Shown here piece by piece: positions 2,427-26,785 of a stretch of DNA of 27,674 nucleotides; the first letter of the stretch is position 1, and the number at the start of each line of letters is the position of its first letter. A program made the translations under genes and the position numbers. The notes under the pieces were generated by a model that was not told where the DNA came from, ran no database searches, and saw only the letters and a list, made by a program, of their open reading frames with translations. The stretch is from a virus, in IMG/VR virus record IMGVR_UViG_3300030380_004098, positions 1 to 27,674 of that record; one strand, 5' to 3'.

Positions 2427-3098
2427 GTGCAGTCCTACAGCGTCCACCCCATAGCGTCCGAGCAATGCAAGCCGTGGTTATTGGGGAGGCATTACGCCCG
2501 GCGGATGTGTCCTATATCCTACGCCTTCGGATTGTATGATGGTGTTCAGCTTGTGGGGGTCTGCACGTTTGGAGTTCCCGCCTCTGCCCCTTTGCGAAAT
2601 AGCATCTGCGGACAAGACGAGATGTCCTATGTTCACGAGCTAAACAGGTTGGTTGTAGACAAGCAACCCCGCAACGTATTGAGCTGGTTCGTGGCTGAAT
2701 GTCTACGCCGTCTGCCGCCCATGATTGTCGTGAGCTTTGCCGACACCGAGCAAGGTCACCACGGGTATATCTACCAAGCCACGAACTGGATATATACCGG
2801 ACTTTCTGCCAAGCGTACCGATTGGAAAGTCAAGGGCAAGGAGCACCTGCACGGCGTGACGGTGGCGGATGAATTCCGGGGTCAACAGAACCGTGGCCAG
2901 CTTATGCGGGAGAAGTACGGAGACGACTTCTATCTCGAAGACCGTCCTCGCAAGCATCGGTACGTTTACCTCATCGGATCCAAGACCCAGCGCAAGCGTT
3001 GGCGCAAGGCGTTGAAGTATGGTGAGGAGCCGTATCCCAAGGGGGACAACTCCCGATATACTGAGGCCCCGATATACTCACAGGCCCAGCTATTTTGA
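2427..3098 (+). CDS. mom: Mom-like DNA adenine modification protein
   Basis: A 223-residue protein resembling phage Mu Mom, a GNAT-fold enzyme that converts adenine in DNA to N6-(methylcarbamoyl)adenine and thereby blocks many restriction enzymes. Visible hallmarks are GRHYARRMCPISYAFGLYDG at 20-39, a VGVCTFGVPAS strand, ELNRLVVD at 71-78, SFADT at 103-107, and GYIYQATNW at 113-121, followed by a Lys/Arg-rich C-terminus likely to contact DNA. The GTG start at 2427 follows the small terminase stop after a 9-nt gap. The TGA stop overlaps the TTG start of the large terminase, so Mom is made from the packaging operon, unlike Mu, where mom is a separate late gene. I see no Com-like zinc-finger activator beside it. 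Family recall is confident; chemistry and target motif here are inferred. Confidence 0.8.
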   Translation: MQSYSVHPIASEQCKPWLLGRHYARRMCPISYAFGLYDGVQLVGVCTFGVPASAPLRNSICGQDEMSYVHELNRLVVDKQPRNVLSWFVAECLRRLPPMIVVSFADTEQGHHGYIYQATNWIYTGLSAKRTDWKVKGKEHLHGVTVADEFRGQQNRGQLMREKYGDDFYLEDRPRKHRYVYLIGSKTQRKRWRKALKYGEEPYPKGDNSRYTEAPIYSQAQLF

Positions 3099-4231
3099 GG
3101 CAGCCCGCCACCTATTACCACGTAAAGGGGTGCGGCTCGCGAGTGCAAGTACACCAGGGCGGCACGCGATCGGGCAAGACATACTCCATCCTCCAGTGCA
3201 TCGTCGAGCTCTGCCACGCCAATCATAACGCAGGGGCGGTCATCACCATAGCCCGGAAGACATTCCCCGCGCTGAGGGCTACGGCCATGAGGGACTTCTT
3301 CGAGATTCTCGAGAGGGAGGACGCGTACGACGTCACCCTTCACAACAAGTCCGAGGCGACGTATGTCCTGTGGGGGAACCTCGTGGAGTTCATCAGCGTG
3401 GACCAACCCCAAAAAGTGAGAGGCCGGCGCCGCTCGACGCTCTACGTAAATGAGGCGAACGAGCTGAGCTTGGAGGACTGGAGGCAGCTCATGTTGAGGA
3501 CCACCGACCGAGCGATTATCGACTTTAACCCATCGGATGAATACCACTGGATCTACGAGGAGGTCATCCCCCGGGAGGACTGCTCATTCTTCCGCACCAC
3601 CTACAAGGACAACCCCTTCCTCGACAAGGCCACCATCGCGGAGATTGAGCGCCTCAAGGATGCAGACCCGAACTACTGGCGAATCTACGGCCTCGGAGAG
3701 CGGGGCGTGAACCAAGCCGCCGTCTTCACTTGGGAAGTAGGGGAGATAGCCGGAAAGCGCATCGGGACCGGCCTCGACTTCGGATTCACCAACGACCCCA
3801 CCGCGGTGATTGATGTCTACCAGGACGGTCATACCCTCATCCTCCACGAGCGGCTGTACTCCACCGGGCTCACGAATCCCGACATCGCCGAGGAGCTGGA
3901 GAAGCTCGACTGCCAGACCATCATCGCCGACAGCGCCGAGCCCAAGTCCATCGAGGAGCTGTTCCGGCTGGGGCACAACGTGAAGCCCGCGCGCAAGGGA
4001 CCGGATTCCGTACGGCAGGGAATCGACATCATGAGACGCCACAAGCTGCTGGTGACTGCGGAGAGCACCAACCTACAGAAGGAACTCAGGGCGTACCGAT
4101 GGGAGCAGGACAAGAACGGGCGCAACCTCAACCGGCCCGTGGACAAGGACAACCACGGCATCGACGCGGTGCGTTACGTCTGCCTCAATCTGCTCACCAC
4201 CCACCGCCGCGGGGTGTACCATTTGGCGTGA
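3095..4231 (+). CDS. terL: Terminase large subunit
   Basis: A 378-residue packaging motor. The ATPase half has Walker A GGTRSGKT at 22-29 and Walker B TLYVNEAN at 115-122. The nuclease half has the expected acidic residues in GLDFGFTNDP at 226-235 (Asp228), IIADSAEPKS (Asp279) and DNHGIDAVRY (Asp357). These give the RNase-H-like headful or site-specific nuclease that cuts concatemeric DNA. At 378 residues it is compact for the family. No ATG precedes the Walker A motif closely enough; the TTG at 3095 overlaps the Mom stop (TTGA) and is taken as the start. Confidence 0.93.
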   Translation: MRQPATYYHVKGCGSRVQVHQGGTRSGKTYSILQCIVELCHANHNAGAVITIARKTFPALRATAMRDFFEILEREDAYDVTLHNKSEATYVLWGNLVEFISVDQPQKVRGRRRSTLYVNEANELSLEDWRQLMLRTTDRAIIDFNPSDEYHWIYEEVIPREDCSFFRTTYKDNPFLDKATIAEIERLKDADPNYWRIYGLGERGVNQAAVFTWEVGEIAGKRIGTGLDFGFTNDPTAVIDVYQDGHTLILHERLYSTGLTNPDIAEELEKLDCQTIIADSAEPKSIEELFRLGHNVKPARKGPDSVRQGIDIMRRHKLLVTAESTNLQKELRAYRWEQDKNGRNLNRPVDKDNHGIDAVRYVCLNLLTTHRRGVYHLA

Positions 4232-21068: not shown

Positions 21069-21277
21069 AGTTCGGCCAGCTCATACGCGGGCTGGACATA
21101 ACTGAAGCATTCAAGACCAAGGGCGACCTCAAGCGGTGGAGCGCAAAGCGCACCGTGGGGGGTGTCCTTGCCTTGACCGCTTCGGAGACCATATTGGTAC
21201 ACGGAATCAGCTGGGAAGCGGTGGCGCTGGCTGGAATTTCGGTGATTCCCATCACCGCATCTATGCTGGAAAAATGA
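21065..21277 (+). CDS. Holin-like protein, 70 aa
   Basis: GTG start in a GTGA overlap. After a charged N-terminus (residues 1-29) there are two hydrophobic spans, about 30-46 (RTVGGVLALTASETILVHG) and 49-67 (SWEAVALAGISVIPITASML), with a short charged tail. Two-span small proteins beside an endolysin are typical class II holins, which open the inner membrane. The sequence itself has no diagnostic motif. Confidence 0.55.
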   Translation: MKFGQLIRGLDITEAFKTKGDLKRWSAKRTVGGVLALTASETILVHGISWEAVALAGISVIPITASMLEK

Positions 21278-22104
21278 CGCCCGTCCAAGTCTACACCCTT
21301 GACTATGAAGCAGGGGACCACTACCGCTGCCTCCTTATGTCCGACCTCCACTGGGATAATCCCAAGTGCGACCGGGAGCGATTGAAACGGGACCTCGACT
21401 ACGCCCTCAAGGAGGACCTCGACATCTTCCTAAATGGGGACACTTTCTGTGCCATGCAGGGCCGGTACGATGGACGGCGAAGCAAGGACGACGTGAGGGA
21501 GGAGCACAACACCGCTCTCTATCTCGATGCCTTGGTGAATACCGCTATCGAATACTTCACGCCATATGCCCACCTCATCCGGGTGGTGGGGTATGGCAAC
21601 CACGAGACGAGCATCCTAAAGAACTGCGAGACCGACATCCTCGGACGGTTTGTGGAGGGCCTCAACGCACGCGGCGCGGAGATTGTCCTCGGCGGGTATG
21701 GGGGGTGGGTTGTGTGGTCCTTCCGTGCAGCCAATGGCAACGGAAACGGCATGGCGTACAAGATGAAATACTTCCACGGATCCGGCGGCGGTGGACCCGT
21801 GACGAAGGGTGCAATCCAGTTCCAGCGCATGAGCGCGTCGATCTCCAACGCGGATTGCATTTGGCAGGGCCACGTCCACGAGAGCATGACCAACATCCAC
21901 GTCGTCGAGCACCTGAACGCGAAGCACACCCAAGAGTTGAAGGAGGTCCTGCACGTTAGGACTCCAACGTACAAAGAGGAATACGCCAACGGAACAAAGG
22001 GGTGGCACGTCATGCGCGGCGCTCCCGCCAAGCCCCTGGGGTGCTATGTGCTAGACCTTGAGTTGAAGTCCAAGAAGGTCCGGGCGCGGGCGTTTCCCTT
22101 GTAA
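21274..22104 (+). CDS. Calcineurin-like metallophosphoesterase
   Basis: 276 residues with the full di-metal signature: SDLHWD at 23-28, NGDTF at 54-58, GNHE at 108-111, FHGSG at 168-172 and GHVHE at 199-203. This is the metallophosphoesterase superfamily that includes SbcD/Mre11-type nucleases and many phosphodiesterases. Substrate is unknown: it could process DNA ends, degrade a nucleotide signal, or act on RNA. It begins in an ATGA overlap with the holin-like gene and is the last + strand gene before a leftward terminator, so it is transcribed late with the lysis genes. Late timing argues against a role in early replication. Confidence 0.85.
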   Translation: MTPVQVYTLDYEAGDHYRCLLMSDLHWDNPKCDRERLKRDLDYALKEDLDIFLNGDTFCAMQGRYDGRRSKDDVREEHNTALYLDALVNTAIEYFTPYAHLIRVVGYGNHETSILKNCETDILGRFVEGLNARGAEIVLGGYGGWVVWSFRAANGNGNGMAYKMKYFHGSGGGGPVTKGAIQFQRMSASISNADCIWQGHVHESMTNIHVVEHLNAKHTQELKEVLHVRTPTYKEEYANGTKGWHVMRGAPAKPLGCYVLDLELKSKKVRARAFPL

Positions 22105-23118: not shown

Positions 23119-23346
23119 ATGAAGTACAACGATTGGTTCCGAGAAGCGAACCGCGCCATCATCGCAGAGATGGCCGTCCAAAAGGTCACCCAAAAGGAGC
23201 TGGCCGAAGCGGTGGGGGTAGACCCCGCCACCATCAACCGCAAGTTGAAGGATCCGGGCAAGTTCACCACCGTCGAATTCGGCAAGGTGTGCGACCGCCT
23301 CAGCATTAACATGAAAACCTTGAGCCATGCAGAAAGCGCAAATTGA
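23119..23346 (+). CDS. Cro/CI-type helix-turn-helix regulator, 75 aa
   Basis: Residues about 25-44 (QKELAEAVGVDPATINRKLK) are a classic lambda-repressor-like helix-turn-helix, followed by KFTTVEFGKVCDRLSINM. The protein has only the DNA-binding domain, with no peptidase or dimerisation domain as in CI, so it is Cro-like in size. It is the first gene of the rightward operon, 22 bp after a consensus promoter, and its stop overlaps the next start. It probably represses the divergent promoters that flank it. No separate CI-like repressor is seen in the window. Confidence 0.8.
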   Translation: MKYNDWFREANRAIIAEMAVQKVTQKELAEAVGVDPATINRKLKDPGKFTTVEFGKVCDRLSINMKTLSHAESAN

Positions 23347-23758: not shown

Positions 23759-23934
23759 CGTACGAGGAGAAGATAGCTCGCATCATGTTCCTCCGGGAGC
23801 ATCGGCGGAACCTGCTCATCGAGCGGTGCAAGGAGGACATCCCCGCGAAGAAGAAGATTATCGTGGACCACGAGCTCAAGCAAATCAAGAAGACCTTGAG
23901 AAAGTTGGACCCGCATGGCATCTTTCCGCCATGA
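23755..23934 (+). CDS. Small basic helical protein, 59 aa
   Basis: A very basic, helical product (EKIARIMFLREHRRNLLIER, then HELKQIKKTLRKLDPHGIFP). Both ends overlap neighbours by 4 nt (ATGA), so it is coupled to the OB-fold and initiator genes. Charge and context suggest binding to nucleic acid or to the initiator, but no family is recognised. Confidence 0.6.
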   Translation: MTYEEKIARIMFLREHRRNLLIERCKEDIPAKKKIIVDHELKQIKKTLRKLDPHGIFPP

Positions 23935-24596
23935 AATTCTGGTTCGACAGCGAGGACGCGCAGCGGTATGGACTCCCAGCCGCTGCCGTTCTTGCCCACC
24001 TGCGCTACTGGATACAGCGCAACACCCACGCCGGGGAGGAGCCCTGCATGACCCAATCCATGAGGGAGATGCAGAGCTACCTTTCCTTCCTTACGGTCCC
24101 GCAAATCAAGCGGGCCCTAGCCAAACTCGAAGAGGGGGAGGCCATCTACCGTGCCCCGAATGGATTCGACCGGAGGCACACCTACTGCCTTGGGACGGAA
24201 TTGTCTCATGCAAGGGACGAAACGGTCTCATCGAAGGGACCAAATCGTACCATCGAAGGGACGGAATTGTCCCGTGTACATATAGAAACAATAACCTCTA
24301 AGAGAACAGAGAGTAGCGCGCGCGAATGGGATCGACCCAGAGAGGAGGAGGAAGTCGTTGAGTACCTCCGGGAGATAGGGGGAGCAGATTTGGCCCCTAC
24401 ATTGGGCCCGGCCTTCTTCAACTACTACCAAGCCAACGACTGGATGGTGAACGGCACACCCATCGCCCGCTGGAAATTCAAGGCCAAGCAATGGCTAACC
24501 AATGAACGAAACAAACGAAGCAATGCACGACGAAAAGGATTCAACCCCGACGGATTCACTCCGGATGGCCTCAAGGACTTCATCGCTAACGGTTAG
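23931..24596 (+). CDS. Replication initiator with internal origin (lambda O-like logic)
   Basis: 221 residues. The N-terminal domain (FWFDSEDAQRYGLPAAAVLA, then LSFLTVPQIKRALAKLEEG) looks like a winged helix as in DnaD/replication-initiator proteins. Residues about 88-116 are encoded by four 22-bp iterons, giving an irregular linker (GTELSHARDETVSSKGPNRT). The C-terminal domain (VVEYLREIGG then FFNYYQANDWMVNGTPIARW and KAKQWLTNE) resembles the helicase- or loader-contacting C-terminus of phage initiators. As with lambda O, the protein probably binds the iterons in its own gene and opens the adjacent AT-rich stretch. It starts in an ATGA overlap. Confidence 0.75.
   Translation: MKFWFDSEDAQRYGLPAAAVLAHLRYWIQRNTHAGEEPCMTQSMREMQSYLSFLTVPQIKRALAKLEEGEAIYRAPNGFDRRHTYCLGTELSHARDETVSSKGPNRTIEGTELSRVHIETITSKRTESSAREWDRPREEEEVVEYLREIGGADLAPTLGPAFFNYYQANDWMVNGTPIARWKFKAKQWLTNERNKRSNARRKGFNPDGFTPDGLKDFIANG
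24192..24279 (+). repeat. Four tandem 22-bp iterons: candidate replication origin
   Basis: Units start at 24192, 24214, 24236 and 24258, exactly 22 bp apart. The shared core is GGGACGGAATTGTCTC followed by a spacer near ATCGAA. Each unit is a dyad (GGGAC-N6-GTCTC; the fourth is a perfect GGGAC-N6-GTCCC). The period is close to two helical turns, so bound proteins line up on one face. An AT-rich stretch (24277-24305) follows and could be the unwinding element. Confidence 0.85.
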
Positions 24597-25086
24597 GACT
24601 CAGGGACTACTTCAAGGAGATAGTCGAAATTTGACCCCTCAAAATGCGTGGAGCGAGGGCACAAACATTCGGACGGCGCTCCGCCTCCAGCCTCATGCGG
24701 TCCGCGCGTGGTTTTTGGCAGAGCTTGGGAAGCTGATCAAATTCGTCGATGCAACCAAGACCATTCAAGACGACGAAGAGATGAAGGAAACCATCCGCGC
24801 CCTCATCGAGGAGTTCCCGGCTTTTAAGCTGGAGGAGTTCGCCTTGGTCTTCGAAGGCATCAAGCGCGACAAGTTCGGGCCCATGTACGGGCGGCTCAAG
24901 CTGGGGGAGATTATGGGGTGTTGCAGGAAGTGGGAAGAGACCCGAGCCGAGCGGATTTTGGAACGGCAGCACCGTCCGGAATACGACCCCCACACCCGGG
25001 GCTCCGTTGGAGAACCCAAACGAAAGGCTATATTGTTGACCGAGGAGGACCTGTTGGCCCTCGGACAAATCAAGCCCCGTGATTGA
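24565..25086 (+). CDS. Probable helicase loader (DUF6633-like)
   Basis: 173 residues from the ATG at 24565; the TTG at 24631 (NLTPQNAWSEG) is an alternative start that avoids overlap with the initiator and matches where similar proteins begin. The core is all helical: RAWFLAELGKLIKFVDATKT, then EEFPAFKLEEFALVFEGIKR and KFGPMYGRLKLGEIMGCCRK, a pattern I associate with DUF6633 proteins found right after initiators in Bacteroidota phages. Place and order (O-P) suggest it brings the host replicative helicase to the origin. No ATPase motif is present, so it is not an AAA+ DnaC-type loader. Its stop overlaps the methyltransferase start. Confidence 0.55.
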   Translation: MASRTSSLTVRTQGLLQGDSRNLTPQNAWSEGTNIRTALRLQPHAVRAWFLAELGKLIKFVDATKTIQDDEEMKETIRALIEEFPAFKLEEFALVFEGIKRDKFGPMYGRLKLGEIMGCCRKWEETRAERILERQHRPEYDPHTRGSVGEPKRKAILLTEEDLLALGQIKPRD

Positions 25087-25726
25087 CCTGCGCCACGCCG
25101 ACTGCATGGACTACCTCGCCACCTGCGAGGACAATGCCTTTGAACTTGCCATCGTAGACCCGCCATATGGGATAGGTGAATCTGGAGAAACAAACCACAC
25201 ACGAGGCAAACTCGCCAAGCCCAAAAAATACAAGGCGTTCGCCGGAGGCGACAAAAGCGCACCGAGCGAGCAATATTTTGCAGAGCTTGAGAGAGTAAGT
25301 AAAAACCAGATTTTATGGGGCGCCAATCACTACCGAGCGCGGGAAAGTAGCGCGTGGATTGTGTGGGACAAGCTGAACGCAGGAACGCACTTCGCAGACG
25401 CAGAACTGGCTTACACCAGCTTCAAAAAAGCCGTGAGAGTGTTTCGATTTAGGTGGAATGGAATGCTACAGGGGGACATGAAAAACAAAGAGGAGCGTAT
25501 CCACCCAACCCAAAAACCCGTCAAGCTCTACGAATGGCTTCTCATGAATTATGCCAAAGAGGGCGACCGCATTCTCGATACGCATCTTGGGAGTGGCTCC
25601 ATTGCCATCGCTTGTCACAACCTCGGCTTCGACCTTGTGGGTTGTGAGCTGGACGAAGACTATTTAAACGCGGCTCGCAAGCGCCTCCAGCAACACCAAA
25701 CGCAACTCCGAATCCCTGTATCATGA
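25079..25726 (+). CDS. DNA (N6-adenine/N4-cytosine) methyltransferase
   Basis: 215 residues, GTG start overlapping the upstream stop. Motif IV DPPYGIG at 27-33, WIVWDK, HPTQKPVKLYEWL, and motif I LGSGS at 170-174 followed by GCELDEDYL give a beta-class amino-methyltransferase without extra domains. It is related to, but clearly different from, the methyltransferase half of the gene at 222 (shared HPTQKPVKL and LGSGS). No cognate endonuclease is present, so it is an orphan enzyme that likely protects replicating phage DNA. Its location in the early operon fits immediate modification of new DNA. Confidence 0.88.
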   Translation: MIDLRHADCMDYLATCEDNAFELAIVDPPYGIGESGETNHTRGKLAKPKKYKAFAGGDKSAPSEQYFAELERVSKNQILWGANHYRARESSAWIVWDKLNAGTHFADAELAYTSFKKAVRVFRFRWNGMLQGDMKNKEERIHPTQKPVKLYEWLLMNYAKEGDRILDTHLGSGSIAIACHNLGFDLVGCELDEDYLNAARKRLQQHQTQLRIPVS

Positions 25727-25857
25727 CCTCCGGACTCCTCGCGGCCATCGCGGTCCTGAGCTTCGCACAGCTTGGCATCGAATACTTCCAAGAGAACCAG
25801 GTCCGTTTGTTCGGGCTCGTTATCCTCCTGCTTGCGTGCCTGGGATTGGTCGGGTGA
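25723..25857 (+). CDS. 44-aa two-span membrane protein
   Basis: MTSGLLAAIAVLSFAQLGIE is one hydrophobic span, and VRLFGLVILLLACLGLVG a second, joined by a short polar loop (YFQENQ). It overlaps both the methyltransferase stop (ATGA) and the NinG start (GTGA), so it is coupled. An early membrane protein could act in superinfection exclusion or host membrane remodelling, but there is no direct evidence. Confidence 0.55.
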   Translation: MTSGLLAAIAVLSFAQLGIEYFQENQVRLFGLVILLLACLGLVG

Positions 25858-26252
25858 ATCGGAAGAAGCTCATCGCCAAGCTCGACCGGGTGTTCTCTCA
25901 GTGGGTCCGGGCTAAGGATGCCGACCACCGCGGGTATGTGGAATGCTACACCTGCGGAGCAGTCAACCATTGGAAGCGCATGGACGCCGGCCACTTCCAA
26001 TCGCGGGGCAAGTTCTCGACTCGGTGGATGTGCGACCCCGAACAGGGGTTGGTCAATGTGGCCCCCCAGTGTAAGAGGTGCAACGGATTCCGGTCCGGTG
26101 AGCAATTCAAGTTCGCCCGCCGGTTGGACGCGGAGTATGGGGAGGGCACCGCGGAGAAGATTGAGCAGATGTCTAACCAAACGAGGAAGTACAGCTCGGA
26201 AGAGCTTGAGGCGCTGATTGAAGTCTACAACCGTCGAGTCCGCAAGCTGTGA
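25854..26252 (+). CDS. ninG: NinG/Rap-like recombination protein
   Basis: 132 residues from the GTG at 25854. KLIAKLDRVFSQWVRAKDAD, GYVECYTCG with Cys31/Cys34, HWKRMDAGHFQSRG (DAGHF at 44-48), and a second Cys pair in QCKRCNGF (Cys73/Cys76) are the hallmarks of lambda NinG (Rap), a structure-specific endonuclease that resolves D-loops and Holliday junctions. The zinc pair and HNH-like DAGHF are intact, so the protein is probably active. Its early-operon place mirrors lambda. Confidence 0.85.
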   Translation: MNRKKLIAKLDRVFSQWVRAKDADHRGYVECYTCGAVNHWKRMDAGHFQSRGKFSTRWMCDPEQGLVNVAPQCKRCNGFRSGEQFKFARRLDAEYGEGTAEKIEQMSNQTRKYSSEELEALIEVYNRRVRKL

Positions 26253-26785
26253 CCCTCTCCCGCTACCTCGAAAAGAACTACGCCGACCTTGAGCAGGCCG
26301 CGTACCGCATCGCCGGAAGGGATGGCCCCGACCTGCTTCACGAGGTAATCCTTCAACTCTACCAAACCAAGGAGGAAACCATCGCCGGGCTCTTGGACAG
26401 GGGGCAGATGAAGTACTGGGTCCTTCGGGTGATGGTCAACAACTACAACTCCAAGACTTCCCGGTACCACTACAAATGGCGGAAGGACATCGAGCGCCGC
26501 CGCAAGTTCTCGCGGCACATCGTGGAGTGGTGGGACGGGGACGGGGTAGCGGCCCACCGGGACGAACTCCTGACCCACATCGAGCAACAGCTCGCCGACC
26601 TCCCTTGGTTCGATGCGGAAGTCTTTGCCATATACTTTGAAGAGGGGCACACCCTGGACTCCTTCGCGGAGGCCACGGGCATCTCTCGCCACACCCTATA
26701 TACCACCATCAGACGTGTCCGAAAACGAATCCAAGGGACTGGGCGACAAGATCGCCAAGCTGACCAAAGCGACGGGAATCAATAA
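26249..26785 (+). CDS. Sigma-70-like protein, candidate late regulator
   Basis: 178 residues, GTG start in a GTGA overlap. The N-terminal half (RYLEKNYADLEQAAYRIAGR then PDLLHEVILQLYQ) matches sigma-70 region 2-type helices, the middle is basic (HYKWRKDIERRRKFSRH), and residues about 115-160 (FDAEVFAIYFEEGHTLDSFA, then EATGISRHTLYTTIRRVRKR) are a region 4-like helix-turn-helix. It may bind core RNA polymerase or a late promoter. It lies downstream of ninG, where lambda keeps its late antiterminator Q. The gene overlaps the next by 71 nt. Confidence 0.65.
   Translation: MTLSRYLEKNYADLEQAAYRIAGRDGPDLLHEVILQLYQTKEETIAGLLDRGQMKYWVLRVMVNNYNSKTSRYHYKWRKDIERRRKFSRHIVEWWDGDGVAAHRDELLTHIEQQLADLPWFDAEVFAIYFEEGHTLDSFAEATGISRHTLYTTIRRVRKRIQGTGRQDRQADQSDGNQ

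Follow-up and report, generated by a model that had tools for sequence, protein, structure and literature searches.

A probable replication origin inside the initiator gene of a small environmental phage, and its possible exchange as a specificity cassette

Four tandem repeats and an adjoining AT-rich tract at about 24.2 kb of the virus record IMGVR_UViG_3300030380_004098 are very probably the replication origin of this phage, embedded in the phage's own initiator gene and similar in its working to lambda O/ori and to origins of the pSK41 type. We infer the origin function of the repeats and the tract from comparative analysis of the window (the whole stretch of 27,674 nucleotides that was analysed) and of related sequences. 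The phage is small and of a marine type, and the 24.2-kb site is the probable start of its DNA replication; as originally predicted, neither a polymerase nor a replicative helicase was found among the genes scanned against PHROGs in this possibly incomplete record. We would further give an even chance to the origin being a mobile specificity cassette, in which a recognition helix and its own iterons lie on a contiguous stretch of ~230 bp that has been repeatedly exchanged among related phages.

The initiator gene (23931–24596, + strand) encodes a protein of 221 amino acids and is supported by PHROG matches, an AF2 model and 31 homologues. The protein matched PHROG 11233, annotated as 'replication initiation protein', with an E-value of 1.9e-7, confined to residues 4–72, as well as the DnaD-like helicase loader phrog_6493 (E 1e-4). 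No Pfam family was found at E-values up to 1, phage replication protein O and PF06970 included, no NCBIfam family was matched, and a PDB sequence search with the profile of the initiator family gave no useful match. The AF2 model displays a winged-helix N-terminal domain, a disordered linker and a helical C-terminal domain. The recognition helix of the winged helix comprises residues 56–68 (24096–24134, + strand), as supported by the AF2 secondary structure, mutual information and a Mantel test, and is followed by wing strands at residues 72–75 and 83–87 and by an unstructured linker at residues 90–132. The C-terminal helical domain (24345–24593, + strand) is the putative replisome-recruiting part of the protein; a fold search with its model (pLDDT 80) returned weak, sigma-region-2-like helical matches with Z under 6 and no informative PDB match, and none of the matches listed was of the DnaD type.

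The array inside the initiator gene consists of four 22-bp units on the + strand, GGGACGGAATTGTCTCATGCAA (24192–24213), GGGACGAAACGGTCTCATCGAA (24214–24235), GGGACCAAATCGTACCATCGAA (24236–24257) and GGGACGGAATTGTCCCGTGTAC (24258–24279), which bears out the exact 22-bp spacing that had been predicted. Neighbouring units are identical at 48/66 positions at a lag of 22, the top tandem signal of the whole 27.7-kb window, and TRF likewise scored the array (90) as the best in the window, where no other iteron array was present and no iteron copies stood out elsewhere. Each unit had been described as a dyad, GGGAC-N6-GTCTC or GTCCC, and this holds for units 1, 2 and 4 but not for unit 3; the right arms of units 1–4 read GTCTC, GTCTC, GTACC and GTCCC, respectively, and only unit 4 forms a perfect 5-bp dyad. 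The half-sites flip orientation every 11 bp throughout the array, and a second dyad, GTCYC-N6-GGGAC, spans the unit boundaries, giving two interleaved dyads per unit. The AT-rich stretch expected after the repeats was found at about 24276–24315 (+ strand; GTACATATAGAAACAATAACC...) and is a probable unwinding element, kept across the iteron classes described below. It peaks at 67.5% AT in a 40-nt window, a level which 0.2% of the windows in this GC-rich record reach, making its AT-richness rare in the record but not unique.

The iterons and the AT-rich tract together encode exactly the linker that is predicted to be disordered, as would suit repeats that matter only as the protein sequence of a flexible linker and have no role in the DNA. 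That reading can practically be dismissed, as the period of 22 or 23 bp is out of frame and the repeats are constrained at the level of codons. The original prediction had every unit read in a different frame: each step of 22 bp does shift the frame, but units 1 and 4, 66 bp apart, share a reading frame and both encode GTELS. When the codons of the initiator gene were shuffled synonymously, keeping the protein sequence fixed, none of 2000 shuffles matched the lag-22 identity of the array. Within a class, pairs with the same amino acid use the same codon 84–95% of the time in the iterons, and synonymous-codon identity is 0.85–0.95 in the AT tract, compared to about 0.5–0.65 for most of the gene (0.46–0.67 for codons 21–75 and 141–190) and about 0.35–0.4 expected from codon usage. 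Identity is likewise high in the first 20 codons and in the last 30, which overlap the next gene's open frame. Comparisons within a class often show higher conservation of the iteron DNA than of the encoded peptide (87–91% nucleotide versus 68–79% amino acid identity in several pairs). The synonymous constraint effectively refutes a purely protein-level origin of the repeats and, together with the shuffles, agrees with the prediction that they are kept for a DNA function; the comparison shows that strong purifying selection acts on the nucleotides of the iterons and the AT tract, and not on the encoded amino acids.

Two scans yielded 30 usable homologues, giving a set of 31 with the window. 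Close relatives lacking the repeats had been named beforehand as the observation that would refute the prediction; since 31/31 homologous initiators have tandem repeats at the same site, this test does not refute it. The spacing is conserved as well, with a period of 22 bp in four classes of repeats and of 23 bp in the fifth. By sequence, the repeats split into four to five classes (A, B, B2, C and D), which are recovered by k-mer clustering of the repeats alone: class A (GGGAC..GTCYC), to which the window belongs, class B (GGnaC..GnaCC) and the closely similar B2, class C (GTGGC..GCCAC) and the 23-bp class D (GACAAAAGG). The dyads of classes A, B, B2 and C were matched in 0/500 column shuffles each, whereas the repeats of class D are less dyadic (12/500). 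The encoded peptide varies between classes while the repeats stay at one position in the gene, and the AT tract is nearly unchanged across classes A–C and recognisable in D.

As a control, the repeat detector was applied at the same threshold to viral sites chosen by an exact match of 16–18 bp to the AT tract or an iteron junction; 0/55 unrelated sites were flagged, and the single positive, L103, is a member of the initiator family. Searches of viral contigs with two exact iteron patterns and, to reach the other classes, with the AT tract gave no iteron arrays outside this family, and a scan of a genome collection found no prophage or host copy. The remote homologues examined for PHROG 11233, from Vibrio and Psychrobacter phages, have no significant repeats inside the gene, and most distant relatives of the C-terminal domain are without significant out-of-frame repeats. 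Two such distant relatives, L069 (~190–330) and L072 (~3200–3340), have an AT-rich tract after repeats of their own in the same place; they share only the C-terminal domain (~30% identity) and their N-terminal domains are unrelated. The likeness of arrangement is suggestive only, and is less certain for L072, in which the repeat is in frame.

In classes A–D the + strand folds better than shuffled sequences (z of -3.3 to -4.5 for the arrays), which would be in line with hairpins in the mRNA that control translation of the initiator or of the next gene. Any inverted repeats in DNA also fold as RNA, however, and the good folding in all classes is explained by the presence of the DNA dyads. Control through mRNA structure predicts neither the constant spacing of 22–23 bp nor a repeat class that tracks the recognition helix, and we consider it very improbable.

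The tracking of the recognition helix was seen both by column and by distance. The protein columns that share most mutual information with the iteron class are residues 56, 57 and 64; all three are located in the recognition helix and distinguish classes A, B and C completely. In Mantel tests, iteron distance followed the distance between recognition helices (r=0.83, or 0.88 without class D), less closely that between wings (codons 69–86; 0.56, or 0.43 without class D) and not that between C-terminal domains (0.07, or 0.13 without class D). There is thus strong comparative evidence that the initiator protein binds the repeats, probably via its N-terminal domain. Were the repeats instead sites for another protein, such as a host factor or the HTH regulator encoded nearby, the coupling to the helix would have to be linkage only, and some linkage is to be expected given that helix and repeats are ~60–180 bp apart in one recombination block. 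Linkage alone nevertheless fails to explain the ranking of the couplings, because residues 69–86 are closer to the iterons than the helix and yet more weakly coupled; codons 118–140, on the other side of the iterons, show no coupling without class D, and the top three columns are all helix residues. Recognition by a different protein is accordingly a very unlikely explanation, and binding by the initiator itself is preferred.

Pairwise DNA profiles of cross-class pairs delimit a candidate specificity cassette at codons ~41–116 (24051–24279, + strand). Near-identical genomes of different class differ in one block of ~230 bp, which runs from the recognition helix across the repeats as far as the shared AT-rich tract, while the flanks are near-identical. 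L029 (class B) and L037 (class C), for example, are 92.5% identical over codons 1–40, 52% over codons 41–75, 67% over codons 76–86 and 62% in the iterons, but 100% in the AT tract, 98.2% from there to the end of the gene and 98.1% in the next gene. The same block pattern was found for L028/L033, L023/L031, L020/L025 and L024/L028, and between L020 (class A) and L035 (class D) the replaced block is larger and takes in the AT tract. The C-terminal domain comes in two types, which occur on several iteron classes, and it therefore recombines independently of the iterons. From these patterns we infer several exchange events, each moving the reading head and its target together; as the sites adjoin the codons of the reading head, one short recombination would swap both and keep them matched. 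If the cassette reading is true, a single exchange would switch replication specificity and leave the unwinding tract and the replisome-recruiting domain in place, and the cassette would provide a reason for origins being placed inside initiator genes; possible drivers would be conflict with competitors, satellites or origin-cutting nucleases.

In the proposed working of the origin, the N-terminal winged helix would bind each iteron, probably as a dimer, and the four bound iterons, about two helical turns apart and on nearly the same helical face, would form an O-some-like nucleoprotein complex able to melt the adjoining AT-rich tract. Recruitment of the host replisome would fall to the C-terminal domain, perhaps together with the product of the next gene, and would account for the replication of a phage in which neither polymerase nor helicase is evident. 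Binding of the initiator to its own gene could also be autoregulatory, with the repeats acting as an intragenic operator at which transcription is blocked or slowed and with replication starting elsewhere. Many plasmid Rep proteins bind iterons and regulate themselves, and self-binding and coupling to the recognition helix would look identical in that case. The sites are, however, ~260 bp into the gene and have no promoter-like site according to a sigma-70 scan, a model that may not fit this host; the adjoining conserved AT-rich tract fits an origin and not an operator, and the window has no other iteron array. We therefore hold the operator to be unlikely and an origin to be the better reading. 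One check suggested for the origin went the other way, as the cumulative GC skew has its minimum at about 18–19 kb and not at 24.2 kb, which is weak evidence in a small phage.

The genes around the initiator form a module that is shared with the relatives, where the order is HTH regulator, conserved unknown gene, initiator/origin, conserved unknown gene, NinG and sigma-like factor. The module is headed in the window by a small CII/Cro-like HTH regulator (23119–23346, + strand), identified by profile matches and syntenic in relatives. The next gene after the initiator (24502–25086, + strand) has an open frame that overlaps the initiator's end and takes the position of lambda P; it has a weak match to DUF6633 and to a PHROG of unknown function, and is kept in relatives wherever downstream DNA is present. 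Further downstream, as in lambdoid nin regions, is a NinG/Rap-like nuclease (25836–26252, + strand; phrog_5034 E 1.7e-26, Pfam NinG 1.1e-13), also syntenic, and the module is closed by a sigma-factor-like protein (26249–26785; phrog_1740 E 2.9e-10), which is at the position of the lambda late regulator Q and strongly conserved in relatives (mostly 82–95%). A DNA methyltransferase gene (25079–25726) lies between the next gene and NinG; no match is found there in relatives, and the gene is likely a recent insertion into the replication module. Elsewhere in the window, a ParB-like domain fused to a DNA methyltransferase is encoded at the record start (222–1355), a Mom-like DNA modification protein (2427–3098; phrog_1384 E 1.3e-56) immediately upstream of the large terminase subunit, and a metallophosphoesterase-type DNA repair exonuclease at 21136–22104 (phrog_7339 E 5.5e-21). 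The nearest named relative of the portal protein is from a Nonlabens (Flavobacteriaceae) phage (37% identity).

The order of the module resembles cII-O-P-nin of lambda, with a cII-like regulator upstream of the initiator and NinG downstream. Lambda O has an N-terminal DNA-binding domain and a C-terminal partner domain, the latter recruiting the P-DnaB helicase complex. In lambda and Stx phages, four to six iterons (four in lambda) and an AT-rich tract are located in the middle of O (PMC7466680), similar to the four iterons and subsequent AT-rich tract inside the initiator gene here. In contrast to lambda, the iteron sequence is unrelated, the initiator has no match to the Pfam phage replication protein O family, and the next gene has no lambda P match despite its position. 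The predicted lambda O/ori arrangement thus stands as a description of how the segment would work, but not as one of sequence family.

The initiators of RepA_N plasmids resemble the phage system no less closely than lambda does. In pSK41, the N-terminal domain binds four Rep boxes located centrally in rep, and the linker is dispensable (PMC5703833); a typical RepA_N iteron consists of inverted repeats that converge on a poly-A tract (PMC7145576). As in pSK41 and pTZ2162, the phage gene contains four repeats and its linker is encoded by the probable ori, and its semi-palindromic iterons converge on an A-rich centre. The RepA_N initiators 4pql/4pt7 were also the best structural matches of the N-terminal domain (Z 10.2; rmsd 2.9 over 88 aligned residues for 4pql_B), although other, unrelated winged helices follow within one Z unit (Z 9.3). 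Unlike RepA_N proteins, the initiator has no PF06970 match, and the element that carries it is a phage and not a plasmid. Joint exchange has likewise been described: in the hybrid rep of pPR9 the whole N-terminal domain and the ori (~500 bp) were exchanged and the C-terminal domain kept (PMC5703833), and in PLE satellites the origin and the RepA N-terminal domain are exchanged together, with an origin-directed nuclease proposed as driver (PMC8263062). The PLE ori is outside repA, whereas the iterons here are inside the initiator gene, and compared to pPR9 the exchanged segment is a contiguous ~230 bp that covers only the recognition helix, the wing and the iterons. An embedded origin and the joint swapping of N-terminal domain and origin are hence of an already known kind (lambda, RepA_N, pPR9, PLE); what this case adds is a swap resolved to below the level of a domain, and an uncharacterised phage family, no description of which was found in the open-access literature.

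The family provides a natural experiment, in which four to five iteron specificities are set against backgrounds that hardly differ and the specificity residues are narrowed to one helix, so that a recognition code between winged helix and iteron is directly testable. The results support the idea that an origin stays within its initiator gene because reader and target are then passed on as one, and they point to where replication is likely to start in a group of ~28-kb environmental phages without evident replication enzymes.
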